Assembly (NCBI GenBank): GCA_026417075.1
Contig: JAOADY010000167.1
Location: 1 to 32,720 of the forward strand
Direction: 5' to 3'
Source: Caloramator sp.
Lineage (GTDB): Bacteria > Bacillota > Clostridia > Clostridiales > Caloramatoraceae
Length of the DNA: 32,720 bases
Shown here: positions 20,585-30,600 of the stretch, piece after piece
How positions within the stretch are numbered: the first letter of the stretch is position 1
Layout of the letters: each line of letters opens with the position of its first letter
The notes under the pieces: model-generated
Databases searched by the model: none
Told to the model about the DNA's origin: nothing
The model's input: the letters and a program-made list of their open reading frames with translations, nothing else
Translations under genes and position numbers: made by a program

Positions 20585-22057
20585 TTATTCAGCAAAAATT
20601 AAAGAGTCGTCAGGTGAATTATTAATATTATCGATTTTTGGGGGAATTTTATTTTCATTATTATCTACATAATCTATTATTTGGTTGAAATAATGAAGGA
20701 AGATGTAGCTTGAGTAGAAGGAATAAAAACTGTAAAATTGTCTTGAAAGAGTAAGTGAAGTAGGATATTTTTTATATGATGTTCTAAAACTTTTAATAAA
20801 TACAGGAGCTTTTCCTGAAGCATATATGTCAGGCAATTCTTTAATATTTATATTATGACCTTTAAAATACATATCGCTGCTTGAGATGCTTTGCATTATA
20901 TTTGAATTTTCAATAGAAGCACTATAAAAGTCTGTAATCATTTTTAAAGTTTGTTCACTATCAGTAGTAGAATATACTAAAAACATACATTTTAAAATTT
21001 CACAGATATCTCTGATAGAGTAACTTATTTTAGAATAATCATCGTATATAAAAAGAGAATATACAGGATCATATAGATCTAAAAGAATATTATATGTTTT
21101 AAAAGCAGCATCTTTAAATTTTTCAATTTTAGTTTCAAAATAGCCTTCAAGAAGAGCTGAAACGGTTTTAAAATGAGTAATTACTGAAGTAACTGAAGTA
21201 TCAATTCCTCCTCTTTCTACTTCTCCGGTAATTTTTATTCTGGATTCAAGTTCTGCACAAAGCAAAGAAACTAAAAGCCTGTATTTTTCCTTTCTTTCTA
21301 TGTCCTCTTCTAAAGCTATACATCGAGCAAAGGATGATATAGCAAGGCTGAGTTCCTTCGATGACAACTCAAATATTTCGTTGCAGTTATTAAATAAAAA
21401 ATCAAAAAGATTATTTAAGTCGATATTGTATTTATCTGTCTTTGAAGAAATGCTATCATTACTGCTTTTAGAAGAAGATTTATAAAGGAACAAAAGAGCT
21501 TCATGCATAAAAATTTGATCTATGAGTTTTGCTTCCTTTTGAATAGGTTTTATTTTAAGTTCCTCTTCGAAATTTTTTGTTTTATCCTCAACAGATATAA
21601 AAAGCCCGTCTTCATTTCTCATATATGCAGTTGAAAAATCATAGTAATTTTGAGCAGTTAAAATCATTAAATATGATAAAAAATCATCTTTAGGTTCAAT
21701 AAATTCCATAGTTTTTAAAAGACCTAATATAGCATAGGCCTGAGAAGCAGGGAGGATTGTTTTATTAAAACTATTAGGATTCCACATATATTTGTGCTCT
21801 CTATCCCAATTGGATATATCTAAAAGAGGCTTGCCTTTTTTGTATGAACATTTTAAGAGTATTATGTCTTCTGATGTGTTGTTAAATTTTTCCGACGATT
21901 CAATAGGATTTAAAATTCTTTTAATATCTTTCACATCCCCAAATTGACATATACCGGCACCTGAGTAGAGTATTCCCCATTTAATATTATCAACGCTCAT
22001 ACAGCACAGCTTAATGGAAGTGTTTAATAAATCGATGTTTTTTTGATGGTCTTGCAA
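20585..22057 (-). CDS. Uncharacterised 490-aa protein
   Basis: I do not recognise this protein. It looks soluble and largely helical, with no signal peptide. Pairs of helices recur, including ILPASQAYAILGLLKTMEFI, DDFLSYLMILTAQNYYDF, KLIDQIFMHEALLFLY and ELSLAISSFARCIALEE. Together with YMRNEDGLF this gives it the feel of an alpha/alpha toroid, but I cannot name a family. A serine-rich linker (SSSKSSNDSISSKTDK) lies near residue 195-210, and the C-terminus is acidic. The start is TTG 22057, with AGGTGGTG (22063-22070) upstream. It is divergent from the HypE-like gene, and a perfect palindrome lies between them. Confidence 0.8.
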   Translation of the reverse strand: MQDHQKNIDLLNTSIKLCCMSVDNIKWGILYSGAGICQFGDVKDIKRILNPIESSEKFNNTSEDIILLKCSYKKGKPLLDISNWDREHKYMWNPNSFNKTILPASQAYAILGLLKTMEFIEPKDDFLSYLMILTAQNYYDFSTAYMRNEDGLFISVEDKTKNFEEELKIKPIQKEAKLIDQIFMHEALLFLYKSSSKSSNDSISSKTDKYNIDLNNLFDFLFNNCNEIFELSSKELSLAISSFARCIALEEDIERKEKYRLLVSLLCAELESRIKITGEVERGGIDTSVTSVITHFKTVSALLEGYFETKIEKFKDAAFKTYNILLDLYDPVYSLFIYDDYSKISYSIRDICEILKCMFLVYSTTDSEQTLKMITDFYSASIENSNIMQSISSSDMYFKGHNINIKELPDIYASGKAPVFIKSFRTSYKKYPTSLTLSRQFYSFYSFYSSYIFLHYFNQIIDYVDNNENKIPPKIDNINNSPDDSLIFAE

Positions 22058-25265: not shown

Positions 25266-25341
25266 CGGGGTGTGGCGCAGATGGGAGCGCGCGTGGTTTG
25301 GGACCATGAGGTCGCAGGTTCAATCCCTGTCACCCCGACCA
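25266..25341 (+). tRNA. tRNA-Pro (anticodon TGG)
   Basis: A 76-base cloverleaf with acceptor arms CGGGGTG/CACCCCG, anticodon loop TTTGGGA (anticodon TGG), a GGTTCAATCC T-arm and CCA encoded in the gene. One G-T wobble occurs in the anticodon stem. It is the first of six tRNA genes. Confidence 0.95.
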
Positions 25342-25353
25342 TTAAAAAGATTG

Positions 25354-25382
25354 TTGACAAGAACGGCGGAATATGTTATTAT
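25354..25382 (+). promoter_or_regulatory. Second sigma-A promoter inside the tRNA array
   Basis: TTGACA (25354-25359), 17 bases, TATTAT (25377-25382). It lies between tRNA-Pro and tRNA-Gly and would start transcription near 25389, just ahead of the tRNA-Gly gene. Confidence 0.8.
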
Positions 25383-25397
25383 ATTTAAGCTGAATAT

Positions 25398-25471
25398 GCG
25401 GGTGTAACTCAATGGTAGAGTGCCAGTCTTCCAAGCTGGTAACGTGGGTTCGATTCCCATCACCCGCTCCA
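25398..25471 (+). tRNA. tRNA-Gly (anticodon TCC)
   Basis: A 74-base cloverleaf with acceptor GCGGGTG/CACCCGC, anticodon loop CTTCCAA in a CCAGT/GCTGG stem (anticodon TCC), GGTTCGATTCC T-arm and encoded CCA. Confidence 0.95.
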
Positions 25472-25476
25472 TATAT

Positions 25477-25553
25477 GCGCCCATAGCTCAGTTGGATAGA
25501 GCAACGGCCTTCTAAGCCGTGTGCCGGGGGTTCGAATCCCTCTGGGCGCACCA
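25477..25553 (+). tRNA. tRNA-Arg (anticodon TCT)
   Basis: A 77-base cloverleaf with acceptor GCGCCCA/TGGGCGC, anticodon stem ACGGC/GCCGT and loop CTTCTAA (anticodon TCT, reading AGA/AGG, which are frequent codons here). CCA is encoded. The D-loop has the A expected for arginyl-tRNA synthetase recognition. Confidence 0.95.
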
Positions 25554-25568
25554 AAAAAGGCCAGAGAG

Positions 25569-25645
25569 GCGCCCATAGCTCAGCTGGATAGAGTTGCAGA
25601 CTTCGAATCTGAAGGTCGTAGGTTCGAATCCTACTGGGCGCACCA
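25569..25645 (+). tRNA. tRNA-Arg (anticodon TCG)
   Basis: A 77-base cloverleaf with the same acceptor stem as the preceding tRNA-Arg (GCGCCCA/TGGGCGC). The anticodon loop is CTTCGAA, giving anticodon TCG for CGN codons. The anticodon stem GCAGA/TCTGA has a G-A mismatch at its outer pair. CCA is encoded. Many bacteria read CGN with an ACG anticodon instead, so this isoacceptor is worth noting. Confidence 0.9.
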
Positions 25646-25658
25646 GAAAAGAGAATGC

Positions 25659-25734
25659 GGGTCATTAGCTCAGTTGGTAGAGCACCTGACTCTTAATCAG
25701 GGTGTCCTGGGTTCGAGTCCCCGATGGCCCACCA
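25659..25734 (+). tRNA. tRNA-Lys (anticodon CTT), copy 1
   Basis: A 76-base cloverleaf with acceptor GGGTCAT/ATGGCCC (one T-G wobble), anticodon stem CCTGA/TCAGG with loop CTCTTAA (anticodon CTT), and encoded CCA. Confidence 0.95.
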
Positions 25735-25743
25735 AATAAATAC

Positions 25744-25819
25744 GGGCTATTAGCTCAGTTGGTAGAGCACCTGACTCTTAATCAGGGTGTCCTGGGTTCG
25801 AGTCCCCGATAGCCCACCA
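25744..25819 (+). tRNA. tRNA-Lys (anticodon CTT), copy 2
   Basis: A 76-base cloverleaf identical to copy 1 except in the acceptor stem, which is GGGCTAT/ATAGCCC and fully Watson-Crick. Anticodon CTT, CCA encoded. It is the last gene of the array. Confidence 0.95.
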
Positions 25820-26023: not shown

Positions 26024-27799
26024 ATGTCCTATTTAAAACTATTGCAGGATAGAATACAGCATTTATCTCAAGATTTATCTTCTGCTCTTGATGTTGATGT
26101 AACGGTTGTTGATGAGAATTATGTAAGAATAGGAGGTACAGGTGGATTTATTGGAGAGATAAATAAGAATTGCCCTGAGAATTCTATATTTGCAAAGGTA
26201 TTAAAAGATGGCAACGAAGAGATAAATATAGATATTAGAAAAAAAGAGAAATGCAAAAACTGTGCTAATCATTTAAAATGTCAAGAAATAGGGAATATGG
26301 CATATCCAATAAAACTTGATGGAAATGTTATAGGGGTAATAGGATTTGTAGCATTTAGTCCTAAGCAGATTAATAATATGATAGCCAAATCCTGTGAATA
26401 TAAAAAAATGTTATCCCAGACTGCTAAAATAATAGAAAATGAAGTTTTGAATATAAAAATAAAAAATAAGCTTATAATTGAAATGGCAGAAATAAATGAA
26501 ATTATAAATTCTATAAATAAAGGAATAGTTATTATAAATTCTGAAGAAGTGATTACCCATATAAATACAAAGGCAATAAAGATATTGGGTATTAATTTCA
26601 GTGAAGAAACTATAATTGGGAAAAATATTCATAAAATAATAAAAAATCTTAAAATAACTGACACTCATAATAAGGAGTTAATTGAAAACTGGGTTATCGG
26701 AGAAAATTATGTAAAAGTTATATATGAAATAAATGAAATAGTTGCTGATAATCAAAAAATTTCAACGCTTATAAGTTTTGATGGTCTAAAAGAAATTATA
26801 AATATTGCAATGAATTATACAAAATCTGATAATATAGATTTTTCTAATATAGTAGGAAAAAGTAAAAAACTAGTAAAGGTAATAGAAAAGGCTAAAATTG
26901 CATCTCTGTCTGATTCTACCATACTCCTTGAAGGTGATAGCGGGACTGGCAAGGAATTGTTTGCAAGAGCAATACATTGTTGTAGTAAAAGAAAAGATGA
27001 AGCTTTTGTTGCTGTAAATTGTGCTAGTATTCCTGAAAATCTTTTAGAATCGGAGCTTTTTGGTTATGAATCAGGAGCATTTACAGGAGCAAGTATTAAA
27101 GGCAAGATTGGTAAATTTGAACTTGCAAATAAAGGTACGCTTTTTTTGGATGAGATAGGAGACTTACCATTGCATTTACAGCCTAAGCTTTTAAGAGCAA
27201 TTCAAGAAAGAGAAATAATAAAGGTAGGAGGTTCTAGTCCTATCAAGGTTGATGTAAGAATAATCTGTGCTACTCATAAAAATTTAGAGCAGCTTGTTGA
27301 GGAAAAAGGTTTTAGAAAAGATTTGTTTTATAGACTTAATGTTATACCTTTAAATATACCTTCATTAAAAGAAAGAGAAAATGATGTAATACTTTGTTCA
27401 GAGTACATATTAAATAAGTTAAGTTTGAAAATGGGAGTAGAAAAGAAATCCTTATCGAAACAGGTTGAAAACTTTTTTTTAAATTATGAATGGCCAGGGA
27501 ATGTAAGAGAACTTGAAAATGTTTTAGAATATGCTGTAACTTTTTCAGCAGGCTGTGAAATTAAAATAGAAGATTTGCCGGATTATTTATTAAATAAAAA
27601 CAAAAAAAATTTTTGTCCTTTGGAAATAAATATAGATGAATGTTCCCTTGAAAGTAAAATTAAACAATTTGAGAAAGATATAATCAAACAATATTTAGAT
27701 AAATATGGAAGAACAACGGAAGGTAAGAAAATAACTGCAGAAAAACTCGGTATTAGTCTTGCAACATTATATAGGAAATTAGAAGAATTCACTTCCTAA
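26024..27799 (+). CDS. Sigma-54-dependent activator, CdsR-like
   Basis: An enhancer-binding protein that uses ATP to open sigma-54 promoters. Of its 591 residues, about 1-130 form a sensory domain with a tight Cys cluster (Cys77, Cys80, Cys86 in CKNCANHLKC). About 155-265 looks like a PAS domain. The AAA+ domain has Walker A GDSGTGKE (304-311), the sigma-54 contact GAFTGA (351-356) and LFLDEIGDLP. The end is a Fis-type helix-turn-helix (ITAEKLGISLATLYRKLEEF). GGAGGG precedes ATG 26024; the upstream in-frame TTG at 25943 lies inside a repeat. It sits next to a sigma-54 promoter and a cysteine desulfidase gene, the arrangement known for CdsR of Clostridioides difficile. Cysteine as its signal is inference. 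Confidence 0.9.
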   Translation: MSYLKLLQDRIQHLSQDLSSALDVDVTVVDENYVRIGGTGGFIGEINKNCPENSIFAKVLKDGNEEINIDIRKKEKCKNCANHLKCQEIGNMAYPIKLDGNVIGVIGFVAFSPKQINNMIAKSCEYKKMLSQTAKIIENEVLNIKIKNKLIIEMAEINEIINSINKGIVIINSEEVITHINTKAIKILGINFSEETIIGKNIHKIIKNLKITDTHNKELIENWVIGENYVKVIYEINEIVADNQKISTLISFDGLKEIINIAMNYTKSDNIDFSNIVGKSKKLVKVIEKAKIASLSDSTILLEGDSGTGKELFARAIHCCSKRKDEAFVAVNCASIPENLLESELFGYESGAFTGASIKGKIGKFELANKGTLFLDEIGDLPLHLQPKLLRAIQEREIIKVGGSSPIKVDVRIICATHKNLEQLVEEKGFRKDLFYRLNVIPLNIPSLKERENDVILCSEYILNKLSLKMGVEKKSLSKQVENFFLNYEWPGNVRELENVLEYAVTFSAGCEIKIEDLPDYLLNKNKKNFCPLEINIDECSLESKIKQFEKDIIKQYLDKYGRTTEGKKITAEKLGISLATLYRKLEEFTS

Positions 27800-27962: not shown

Positions 27963-29243
27963 ATGAATTATGATAAAATAGTTAAAGTGTTAAATCAACA
28001 AGTAAAGCCGGCATTAGGCTGTACAGAGCCTGTAGCTGTTGGCATTGCAGTAGCAAGAGCTTGTAAGGAAGTTAAAGGGGAACCTGATAATATATCTGTA
28101 AAGTTAAGTCCCAATATATTTAAGAATGGTATGAGAGTTGGAATTCCAGGGACAAGTCATAGTGGAATACCCTTTGCCATAGCTTTATCAGCTGTTTGTG
28201 GAGATTCTGATTTAGGACTTGAGGTTTTTAAAAATGTTACATTAGAAGATGAAAAAAATGCGGAAAAACTTTTATGCAAAGGAATAGTTGAAATAGGAGT
28301 TGATGACTCTAAAGATAACTTTTATATAAGAGCAGATGTAAAAACTGATAAGGGTTATGCAGTTTGCATAATTGAAGGTTTTCATACTAACATAACCTAT
28401 GTTGAAGCCAATGGAAATGTGATTTATAAAAAAGATTATAAATCCTGTAGTAGTAAAGAAGAACTTGAAAAAATAGGGGATTTAACTATTAAAGAACTTA
28501 TAGAAATAATAGAAAATATTCCATTTGAAGATATAAGATTTCTTCTTGAGGGCGAGAAAATAAATATGGAAATAGCAGCTAAAGGGCTTGAAGAAGGGAT
28601 AGGACTTGGTCTCGGACGAGGAATTAAAAAGTTAATAGATACTGGAACCATTGACAAGGATATGGCAAATACGGTAAGATTTTATACAGCAGCAGCTTCC
28701 GATGCAAGAATGGCTGGAGTTAATATGCCGGTTATGAGCAGTGCTGGGAGTGGAAACCATGGCATTACTGCTATTATCCCAGCTTCAATTGTTTGCCGAT
28801 TTTTAGGCTATGGCGATGAGAAACTTTCAAGAGCACTTGCCCTGAGTCATCTTGTTACAGTTTATATTAAAGAATACACAGGGAGATTGTCTCCTGTATG
28901 CGGCTGTGGTATTGCTGCAGGAGTTGGAGCCTGTGCTTCGGTTGCATGGCTTATAGGATGCGATGATAAGCAGATAGAGGGTGCTATAAAGAATATGATA
29001 GGCAATCTGGCAGGACTTTTATGCGACGGTGCAAAGGGAGGATGTGCCTTTAAACTTTCAACAGCATCTTCAGAGGCAGTTATTCAAGCATATCTTGCTA
29101 AGAATAATGTTATTATATCTGACTATGATGGAATCGTATCAAAAGAAACTGAAAATACAATAAAAAATCTTGGTAAATTATGCAAGGAAGGTTTATCAGG
29201 AGTTGATAATAAGATAATTGAAATAATGCTTGGGGATAAATAA
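27963..29243 (+). CDS. cdsB: L-cysteine desulfidase (UPF0597/CdsB family)
   Basis: It breaks L-cysteine down to pyruvate, ammonia and sulfide with an iron-sulfur cluster and without PLP. The 426-residue protein has the family landmarks: LGCTEPVAVG with Cys20, GIPGTSHSGIPFA and SSAGSGNHGITAI. The C-terminal Cys positions are Cys313 and Cys315 (SPVCGCGIAAG), Cys354 and Cys361 (LLCDGAKGGCAFK), the likely cluster ligands. Related proteins include E. coli CyuA and archaeal L-cysteine desulfidase. AGGGAGGG precedes the ATG, behind a sigma-54 promoter. The SLC1-type symporter follows. A serine dehydratase activity cannot be excluded, because the fold is shared. Confidence 0.9.
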   Translation: MNYDKIVKVLNQQVKPALGCTEPVAVGIAVARACKEVKGEPDNISVKLSPNIFKNGMRVGIPGTSHSGIPFAIALSAVCGDSDLGLEVFKNVTLEDEKNAEKLLCKGIVEIGVDDSKDNFYIRADVKTDKGYAVCIIEGFHTNITYVEANGNVIYKKDYKSCSSKEELEKIGDLTIKELIEIIENIPFEDIRFLLEGEKINMEIAAKGLEEGIGLGLGRGIKKLIDTGTIDKDMANTVRFYTAAASDARMAGVNMPVMSSAGSGNHGITAIIPASIVCRFLGYGDEKLSRALALSHLVTVYIKEYTGRLSPVCGCGIAAGVGACASVAWLIGCDDKQIEGAIKNMIGNLAGLLCDGAKGGCAFKLSTASSEAVIQAYLAKNNVIISDYDGIVSKETENTIKNLGKLCKEGLSGVDNKIIEIMLGDK

Positions 29244-29344: not shown

Positions 29345-30508
29345 ATGTCTAAAATGAAAGATAGTTTAATAGTAAAAATTGTTTTGGCGGTTATATTAGG
29401 TATTATATTAGGATTAACAGTTAATTCAACATTAATAGGAATTATAGCCACTTTGAAGTATATACTAGGGCAGTTTATATTTTTCTGTGTTCCACTTATA
29501 ATATTGGGATTTATTACACCTTCAATAACAGGATTAAAATCAAATGCAAGTAAAATGTTAGGGTGTGCAATTTTAATAGCATATTTATCATCAGTTGGGG
29601 CAGCGGCTTTTTCGGCTATTGCAGGTTACATATTGATTCCGGGGCTTAATATTGTAAGTAATCCTGAGGGACTTAAAAAATTACCTGAGTTAGTATTTAA
29701 ACTTGACATACCACCGGTTATGTCTGTAATGACAGCACTAGTACTATCAATAGTATTAGGGCTTACAGTTATTTGGACGGATTCAAAAAATATAAACAAC
29801 ATTTTAGTAGAACTTAATAATATTATGATGCAGGTAGTAACAAAAATGGTAATACCTATTCTTCCTGTTTTTATATCAGCAACCTTTGCTGGTTTAACTT
29901 ATGAAGGCAGAATAACAAAACAATTTCCGATATTTTTAAAGGTAATTCTTATAGTTATTGTTGGGCATTTCATATGGCTTACATTACTTTATCTAGTTGC
30001 AGGCTTAATATCAAAGAAAAATCCAATGGAAGTTATAAAGCATTATGGTCCTGCGTATTTAACAGCTGTTGGCACTATGTCTAGTGCAGCAACTCTTCCA
30101 GTTGCTCTTAGCTGTGCAAGAAAGTCAAAGGTACTTGATAGGGAAGTTGTAGATTTTGCAATACCTATAGGATCAACTATACATCTTTGTGGCTCTGTGC
30201 TAACAGAAACATTTTTTGTTATGACGGTATCAAAAATATTATATGGAACATTACCGCAAATGCATACTATGGTTATATTTATTATTCTTCTCGGTGTTTT
30301 TGCAATTGGTGCTCCAGGTGTACCAGGAGGCACAGTAATGGCTTCATTAGGGTTAATTACAGGTATTTTAGGTTTCGATCAATCTGGAGTTGCTCTTATG
30401 CTTACTATATTTGCTCTTCAGGATAGTTTCGGAACAGCATGTAATGTTACTGGAGATGGAGCTATAGCACTTATGCTTACTGGAATATTTAAAAATAAGA
30501 ATAAATAA
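29345..30508 (+). CDS. SLC1/DAACS-family symporter, atypical substrate and ion motifs
   Basis: A secondary transporter of the GltPh/SstT fold in the cytoplasmic membrane. The 387 residues show the family's helices and re-entrant loops: HP1 SSAATLP (246-252) and HP2 GAPGVPGG (322-329). Helix 8 has D360, T364, N367 and D371, aligning with the GltPh positions D394, T398, N401 and D405. The arginine that binds an acidic side chain (GltPh R397) is Gly363, so glutamate or aspartate is unlikely and a small neutral amino acid is favoured. The helix-7 NMDGT motif is HLCGS (280-284), losing the sodium-binding Asp. Its position after the desulfidase gene suggests cysteine uptake. GGGGG precedes the ATG. 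I see no sigma-54 site of its own. Confidence 0.88.
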   Translation: MSKMKDSLIVKIVLAVILGIILGLTVNSTLIGIIATLKYILGQFIFFCVPLIILGFITPSITGLKSNASKMLGCAILIAYLSSVGAAAFSAIAGYILIPGLNIVSNPEGLKKLPELVFKLDIPPVMSVMTALVLSIVLGLTVIWTDSKNINNILVELNNIMMQVVTKMVIPILPVFISATFAGLTYEGRITKQFPIFLKVILIVIVGHFIWLTLLYLVAGLISKKNPMEVIKHYGPAYLTAVGTMSSAATLPVALSCARKSKVLDREVVDFAIPIGSTIHLCGSVLTETFFVMTVSKILYGTLPQMHTMVIFIILLGVFAIGAPGVPGGTVMASLGLITGILGFDQSGVALMLTIFALQDSFGTACNVTGDGAIALMLTGIFKNKNK

Positions 30509-30518
30509 AATATAAGAT

Positions 30519-30549
30519 TAAAAAAAGGAGGTTTAACCTCCTTTTTTTA
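30519..30549. terminator. Strong terminator of the cysteine locus
   Basis: A long stem, AAAAAAAGGAGG with CCTCCTTTTTTT around a TTTAA loop, at 30519-30549. A-rich on one side and T-rich on the other, so it should work in both directions. Confidence 0.9.
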
Positions 30550-30600
30550 ATTTAAATATTAGGGTATAATAATTAATAGTATTATTTGGGAGGAATAGAT

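Follow-up and report, generated by a model that had tools for sequence, protein, structure and literature searches.

A conserved SLC1-type transporter variant encoded with L-cysteine desulfidase in Caloramator sp., a candidate cysteine importer

The 32,720-nucleotide stretch of Caloramator sp. DNA analyzed here (the window) encodes an SLC1-type transporter in which residues of the acidic-substrate and sodium sites are replaced, raising the question of which substrate this protein carries and which ions drive it. The original prediction, made from the letters and translations of the window, proposed a small neutral amino acid as the substrate and an altered or reduced coupling to sodium. The features bearing on these proposals are listed in Table 1. 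Elsewhere in the window, a 490-aa ORF (20585-22057, minus strand) had no Pfam match at 1e-8 and overlapped no other long gene.

Table 1. Features of the transporter locus, with positions in the window and the basis of each assignment
Feature	Position	Strand	Basis
Sigma-54 enhancer-binding activator, CdsR-like (PAS, AAA+ with GAFTGA, Fis HTH)	26024..27799	+	Domains; C. difficile CdsR architecture and position
Sigma-54 promoter TTGGCATGATCCTTGC, 29 nt upstream of the cyuA start codon	27918..27933	+	Exact match to the Clostridiales consensus
L-cysteine desulfidase CyuA/CdsB, 426 aa, directly upstream of the transporter	27963..29243	+	PF03313; 9fsl match; residues
SDF/SLC1-type transporter, HLCGS clade, 387 aa, candidate L-cysteine importer	29345..30508	+	PF00375, orthologues, fold
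S82-S83 = GltPh T92-S93, the Na3 side-chain ligands still present	29588..29593	+	Clade alignment
H280-L281-C282-G283-S284 = GltPh N310-M311-D312-G313-T314; TM7 break; nexus of Na1, Na3, and substrate	30182..30196	+	Three alignments, 42/42 invariance, model
E288 = GltPh Q318 = EAAT1 E406/EAAT2 E404/EAAT3 E374 (EAAT proton acceptor)	30206..30208	+	phmmer, clade counts, residue table in PMC3958442
TM8 substrate motif D360-S-F-G363-T-A-C-N367-V-T-G-D371 (GltPh D394, R397 to G, N401, D405)	30422..30457	+	MAFFT, hhalign, clade counts
Intrinsic-terminator-like palindrome 3' of the transporter, closing the operon	30517..30551	.	Called on the minus strand; palindrome symmetric

Transporter gene, fold, and site residues

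The transporter ORF has an ATG start and a good ribosome-binding site. Its sole Pfam match was PF00375 (SDF), which covered the full length (residues 8-378) with an E-value of 1.6e-77 and 261.6 bits against a cut-off of 27.9; the NCBIfam profiles assigned it to no named family, and its orthologues share 58-81% identity with it. An AlphaFold2 model built from 14 alignment rows was of moderate confidence (mean pLDDT 67), and it matched GltPh (6wyk) with a VIA-align Z of 34.1 and 3.3 A over 363 residues. Profile and elevator fold thus both place the protein in the SDF/DAACS/SLC1 superfamily. In the model, the TM7 helix was interrupted exactly at residues 280-281, between helices 266-279 and 282-300.

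The sites were mapped onto GltPh by phmmer to human EAAT2, by MAFFT with homologues, and by hhalign between the clade profile and GltPh. The GltPh reference sequence aligned end to end with PDB 1xfh/7ahk, with at least one mismatch, outside the sites used. All three alignments set NMDGT (310-314) on HLCGS (280-284) without gaps, as originally proposed, and together with the TM7 break in the model they ruled out a misplaced motif. The assignments in TM8 were likewise confirmed by MAFFT, hhalign, and the clade counts: R397, the mark of acidic amino acid and dicarboxylate carriers, is Gly363 here, and D394, N401, and D405 are kept. The original reading is supported in part; N310H as a site change, Q318E, and the cyuA operon were not among its points.

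Conservation of the HLCGS motif and ion coupling

Homologues were drawn from genomes of Tissierella, Tepidimicrobium, Alkaliphilus, Anaerosalibacter, and Clostridium pascui and from further genomes of the class and phylum. They comprised 42 proteins of the HLCGS type and 55 sister-type proteins, most of which have HLSGS or HLAGS; a literature search found no description of the HLCGS clade. The HLCGS proteins, which belong to clostridia-like anaerobes, formed a single clade with an SH-aLRT value of 95 in a quick tree calculated without the motif columns and having long outgroup branches. H280, L281, C282, G283, and S284 were each invariant in 42/42 members, which ruled out random degeneration or a sequencing error in one gene; the transporter is a real, conserved variant within a known family. 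In GltPh numbering, Ser92, His310, and Cys312 occurred in all 42 members, Gly397 and Asp394 in 41/41 (members sequenced there), and Asp405 in 40/41. The cysteine that had been described as introduced at an ion-ligand position does align with D312; however, since Cys at 312 is present in every member, Cys282 is a fixed character of the clade and not private to this gene, and the sister clade has Ser or Ala in its place. H310, G397, and D394 are common to both types, and the sister-type exceptions at 312 were one Pro and one Cys, the latter in an HMCGS protein without E318. A background sample of 70 further SDF proteins from the phylum contained H310 in two, C312 in one, and G397 in none. At position 318, Glu is present in 41/42 members of the HLCGS clade; the 55 sister proteins have only Leu or Ile there, and none of the 70 background proteins has Glu.

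Two variations of these sites were observed in relatives. One contig of another genome of the same family (G413, contig C26, L064:1-6000) carries three tandem HLCGS genes, approximately 61-64% identical to the window transporter, with E288 replaced by Ile in one copy and D371 by Gly in another; no CyuA was shown in that genome. At eight loci, the motif of a sister subgroup is HLAGD, with Asp at the position where T314 binds the substrate; this is possibly another relocation of negative charge within the same pocket.

Judging by the residues, an acid is gone from the Na3 site of the clade (D312, together with N310) and is present at the proton site of EAATs. This can be described as a shift of the acid from one site to the other because human EAATs accept their proton at position 318; E374 of EAAT3 carries the proton, and the exchange E374Q abolishes the pH dependence of that transporter (PMC3958442; PMC6769379). 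Having lost N310 and D312, the protein should have a disabled Na3 site, while D371 leaves Na1 possible. Reduced sodium coupling, as suggested originally, is therefore plausible, and a scheme other than the standard three-sodium one probably drives the transporter. It fits neither of the signature classes of Reddy et al. (2025). From the Na+ signature (S/T92-93, N310, M/S311, D/E312, and D/E405), S92, S93, and D405 are present, but the other positions read N310H, M311L, and D312C; from the H+ signature (nonpolar 92, L311, and N405), only L311 is present, position 92 being Ser and position 405 Asp.

The loss of D312 alone is no proof of lost Na+ use, because E. coli SstT, with Ala at this position, is annotated as a serine/threonine:Na+ symporter. 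SstT is also without R397 (Glu) and keeps D394 and D405, so that an ordinary Na+ symporter, in which Na3 was simply replaced in the same manner and E288 and H280 are structural only, has a real, though minority, claim. This parallel is weakened by the residues that SstT retains, namely N310, M311, and Ile at 318, as N310 and M311 are both changed in the transporter and an acid is fixed at 318. A Na+-independent, proton-coupled cysteine importer using E288 and/or H280 as the proton carrier, convergent with EAATs and with H+ symporters of the GltP type, appears rather unlikely. Such coupling would agree with the clade-fixed E288 at the EAAT proton site, which is absent elsewhere, with L311, which belongs to the three-residue H+ signature of Reddy et al., and with a titratable histidine, H280, where a Na+ ligand would otherwise lie. 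However, at the positions where H+-coupled members have N405 and a nonpolar residue at 92, this protein retains D405 and S92/S93. Moreover, carrying a proton is one of two possible roles for E288: position 318 adjoins position 397 and can reach it, so the residue may instead line the side-chain pocket and face the side chain of the substrate.

The cyuA operon and the substrate

The gene directly upstream matched CyuA of M. maripaludis (PDB 9fsl) with an E-value of 1.2e-31. Its product has the catalytic residues C20/E22 and the Fe-S ligands C313, C354, and C361 (Cys23/Glu25 and Cys287/329/336 in MmCyuA), which identify it as an L-cysteine desulfidase. The promoter TTGGCATGATCCTTGC was the sole exact match to the Clostridiales sigma-54 consensus within the window, and a site 5' of cyuA was exact in seven orthologous loci and had one mismatch in two more. 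The activator gene adjoins this cdsB-type gene and its -24/-12 promoter, and its domain composition is that of CdsR. A gap of 101 bp, with a weak palindrome after cyuA, separates cyuA from the transporter gene, and we infer that the two are cotranscribed. Just upstream of the activator gene lie six tRNA genes (Pro, Gly, Arg, Arg, Lys, and Lys; 25266-25819), both tRNA-Lys copies having the anticodon CTT.

Across relatives, 20/42 HLCGS genes had a CyuA gene at most four genes away, against 0/55 sister genes (Fisher 1.9e-9, a value that ignores shared ancestry). All 20 pairs lay on the same strand, 18 of them were immediately adjacent with gaps of 2-133 nt, and both gene orders occurred; on the tree, the adjacency label needed 10 changes. 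The remaining 22 HLCGS genes had no CyuA neighbour, and no CyuA was shown in 7/27 HLCGS genomes; some members of the clade may therefore carry a substrate other than cysteine. Co-occurrence at the genome level was rejected as support since no enrichment was found (20/27 HLCGS genomes vs. 21/29 sister-only genomes); because CyuA is equally common in the latter, the link between HLCGS and CyuA is one of adjacency and not of presence. Where the HLCGS neighbour of CyuA was missing, a crude hydrophobicity count mostly found no other transporter nearby. In one genome of the same genus (G402, locus L139), CyuA (89% identical) and the activator are present, no SDF-family transporter adjoins CyuA, and no HLCGS type was found in the genome; the importer appears to have been lost or gained within the genus.

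That the substrate is small and neutral, as originally proposed, is well supported by the residues of the pocket: G397 is combined with a retained D394, and SstT also lacks R397. The engineered variant GltPh-R397C accepts Ser, Ala, and Cys, and the apparent number of Na+ coupled to their transport is 1.5-1.8 (PMC5750217); since R397 is gone here as well, the pocket should accept small neutral side chains. The operon context singles out cysteine from these as the most likely physiological substrate, and the transporter is probably a cysteine importer because its gene stands in an operon with that of a cysteine-degrading enzyme. As a whole, a dedicated importer of L-cysteine, possibly also of serine, that feeds CyuA is the best explanation and a probable one.

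A general importer of small neutral amino acids (Ser/Thr/Ala/Cys), for which the cyuA link concerns one of several substrates, as in SstT and the sister clade, is unlikely. It would account for the location of about half of the HLCGS genes away from cyuA and would accord with GltPh-R397C, which takes Ser, Ala, and Cys alike. Serine (Sda) or threonine dehydratase genes neighbour 15/55 sister HL[S/A]GS genes; nevertheless, they neighbour 0/42 HLCGS genes. Sister HLSGS operons (L074, L078, L080, L081, and others) include SdaAA, SdaAB, threonine dehydratase, and RidA, and the sister HLSGS transporters are probable serine/threonine importers for amino acid fermentation. Furthermore, the genome has just one additional SDF gene (G000:C14:11336-12484, L016), which is SstT-like (NMAGA, QDSCETALNSSTD), and a serine/threonine carrier is therefore already present. 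An acidic amino acid or dicarboxylate transporter, as the family name implies, or an exporter of excess cysteine, in line with the safety-valve role against cysteine that has been proposed for C. difficile CdsB, is very improbable, given that R397 is Gly throughout, the amino-group ligand D394 is always kept, and CyuP, the partner of cyuA in E. coli, is an importer for fermentation.

For the preferred reading, a dedicated cysteine importer, the following mechanism is proposed. The elevator-type SLC1/DAACS transporter would import L-cysteine and possibly serine, and the co-transcribed desulfidase would turn the imported cysteine into pyruvate, ammonia, and H2S for energy, the CdsR-like sigma-54 activator inducing the operon, presumably on cysteine. 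D360 and N367 are the expected ligands of the substrate's alpha-amino and alpha-carboxylate groups, and with G363 at the position of R397, the selector of acidic side chains would be gone. With Na3 putatively dismantled (N310H and D312C), Na1 keeping its aspartate D371, and E288 as a new acid at the EAAT proton-acceptor position, the number of coupled ions would probably be below three; perhaps Na+ binds at Na1 and a proton on E288 or H280.

Significance and known systems

The HLCGS clade provides a specific importer candidate for anaerobic cysteine fermenters and, for transporter biophysics, a natural SLC1 lineage in which ligands of Na3 are lost and the EAAT proton residue is gained. It is a ready system for the question of Reddy et al. 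(2025) of how SLC1 proteins switch coupling ions. A bolder reading, which we hold only tentatively, is that of a second, independently evolved kind of dedicated bacterial cysteine importer on the SLC1 fold, in which the Na3 acid was given up, an acid was acquired at the EAAT proton site in exchange, and coupling moved from three Na+ towards H+ (or H+ and Na+), convergently with EAATs. If true, such a proton-shifted SLC1 cysteine importer would show that proton coupling of the EAAT type occurs naturally in bacteria.

The transporter is best read as analogous but unrelated to CyuP, which we take to belong to the HAAAP family, other than PF00375. In the CyuP-CyuA cysteine fermentation operon of E. 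coli, a transporter is likewise encoded with CyuA (PMC9040844), but here it is an SLC1/DAACS protein (PF00375) accompanied by a sigma-54 activator, while E. coli has CyuP and CyuR/DecR. The cdsR-cdsB locus of Clostridioides difficile also has a sigma-54 activator adjoining the cysteine desulfidase gene and a -24/-12 promoter; its authors found no CyuP orthologue and left the cysteine importer open (PMC5767170, PMC6615313). No transporter is known for that locus, whereas the operon described here carries one.

Within PF00375, SstT (of E. coli, and the second gene of this genome) resembles the transporter in the DAACS fold, the loss of D312 and R397 with D394/N401/D405 kept, and neutral substrates. 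It differs in having NMAGA, E397, and no acid at 318 as opposed to HLCGS and G397, and the transporter falls on a branch separate from the SstT subfamily (SH-aLRT 98), with motifs other than NMAGA/QDSCET. GltPh and GltTk have the fold and the substrate backbone ligands in common with the transporter, but in GltPh, N310/D312 and with them the Na3 site are intact, and residue 318 is Gln. The sulphur amino acid carrier TcyP (YdjN), a cystine symporter, is also a PF00375 member, but it keeps R397 and has a QNGC-type TM7 and S405. Human EAAT1-3 (SLC1A3/2/1) share with the transporter the Glu at position 318, their proton acceptor, but they keep NMDGT and R397 and couple 3 Na+/1 H+/1 K+.
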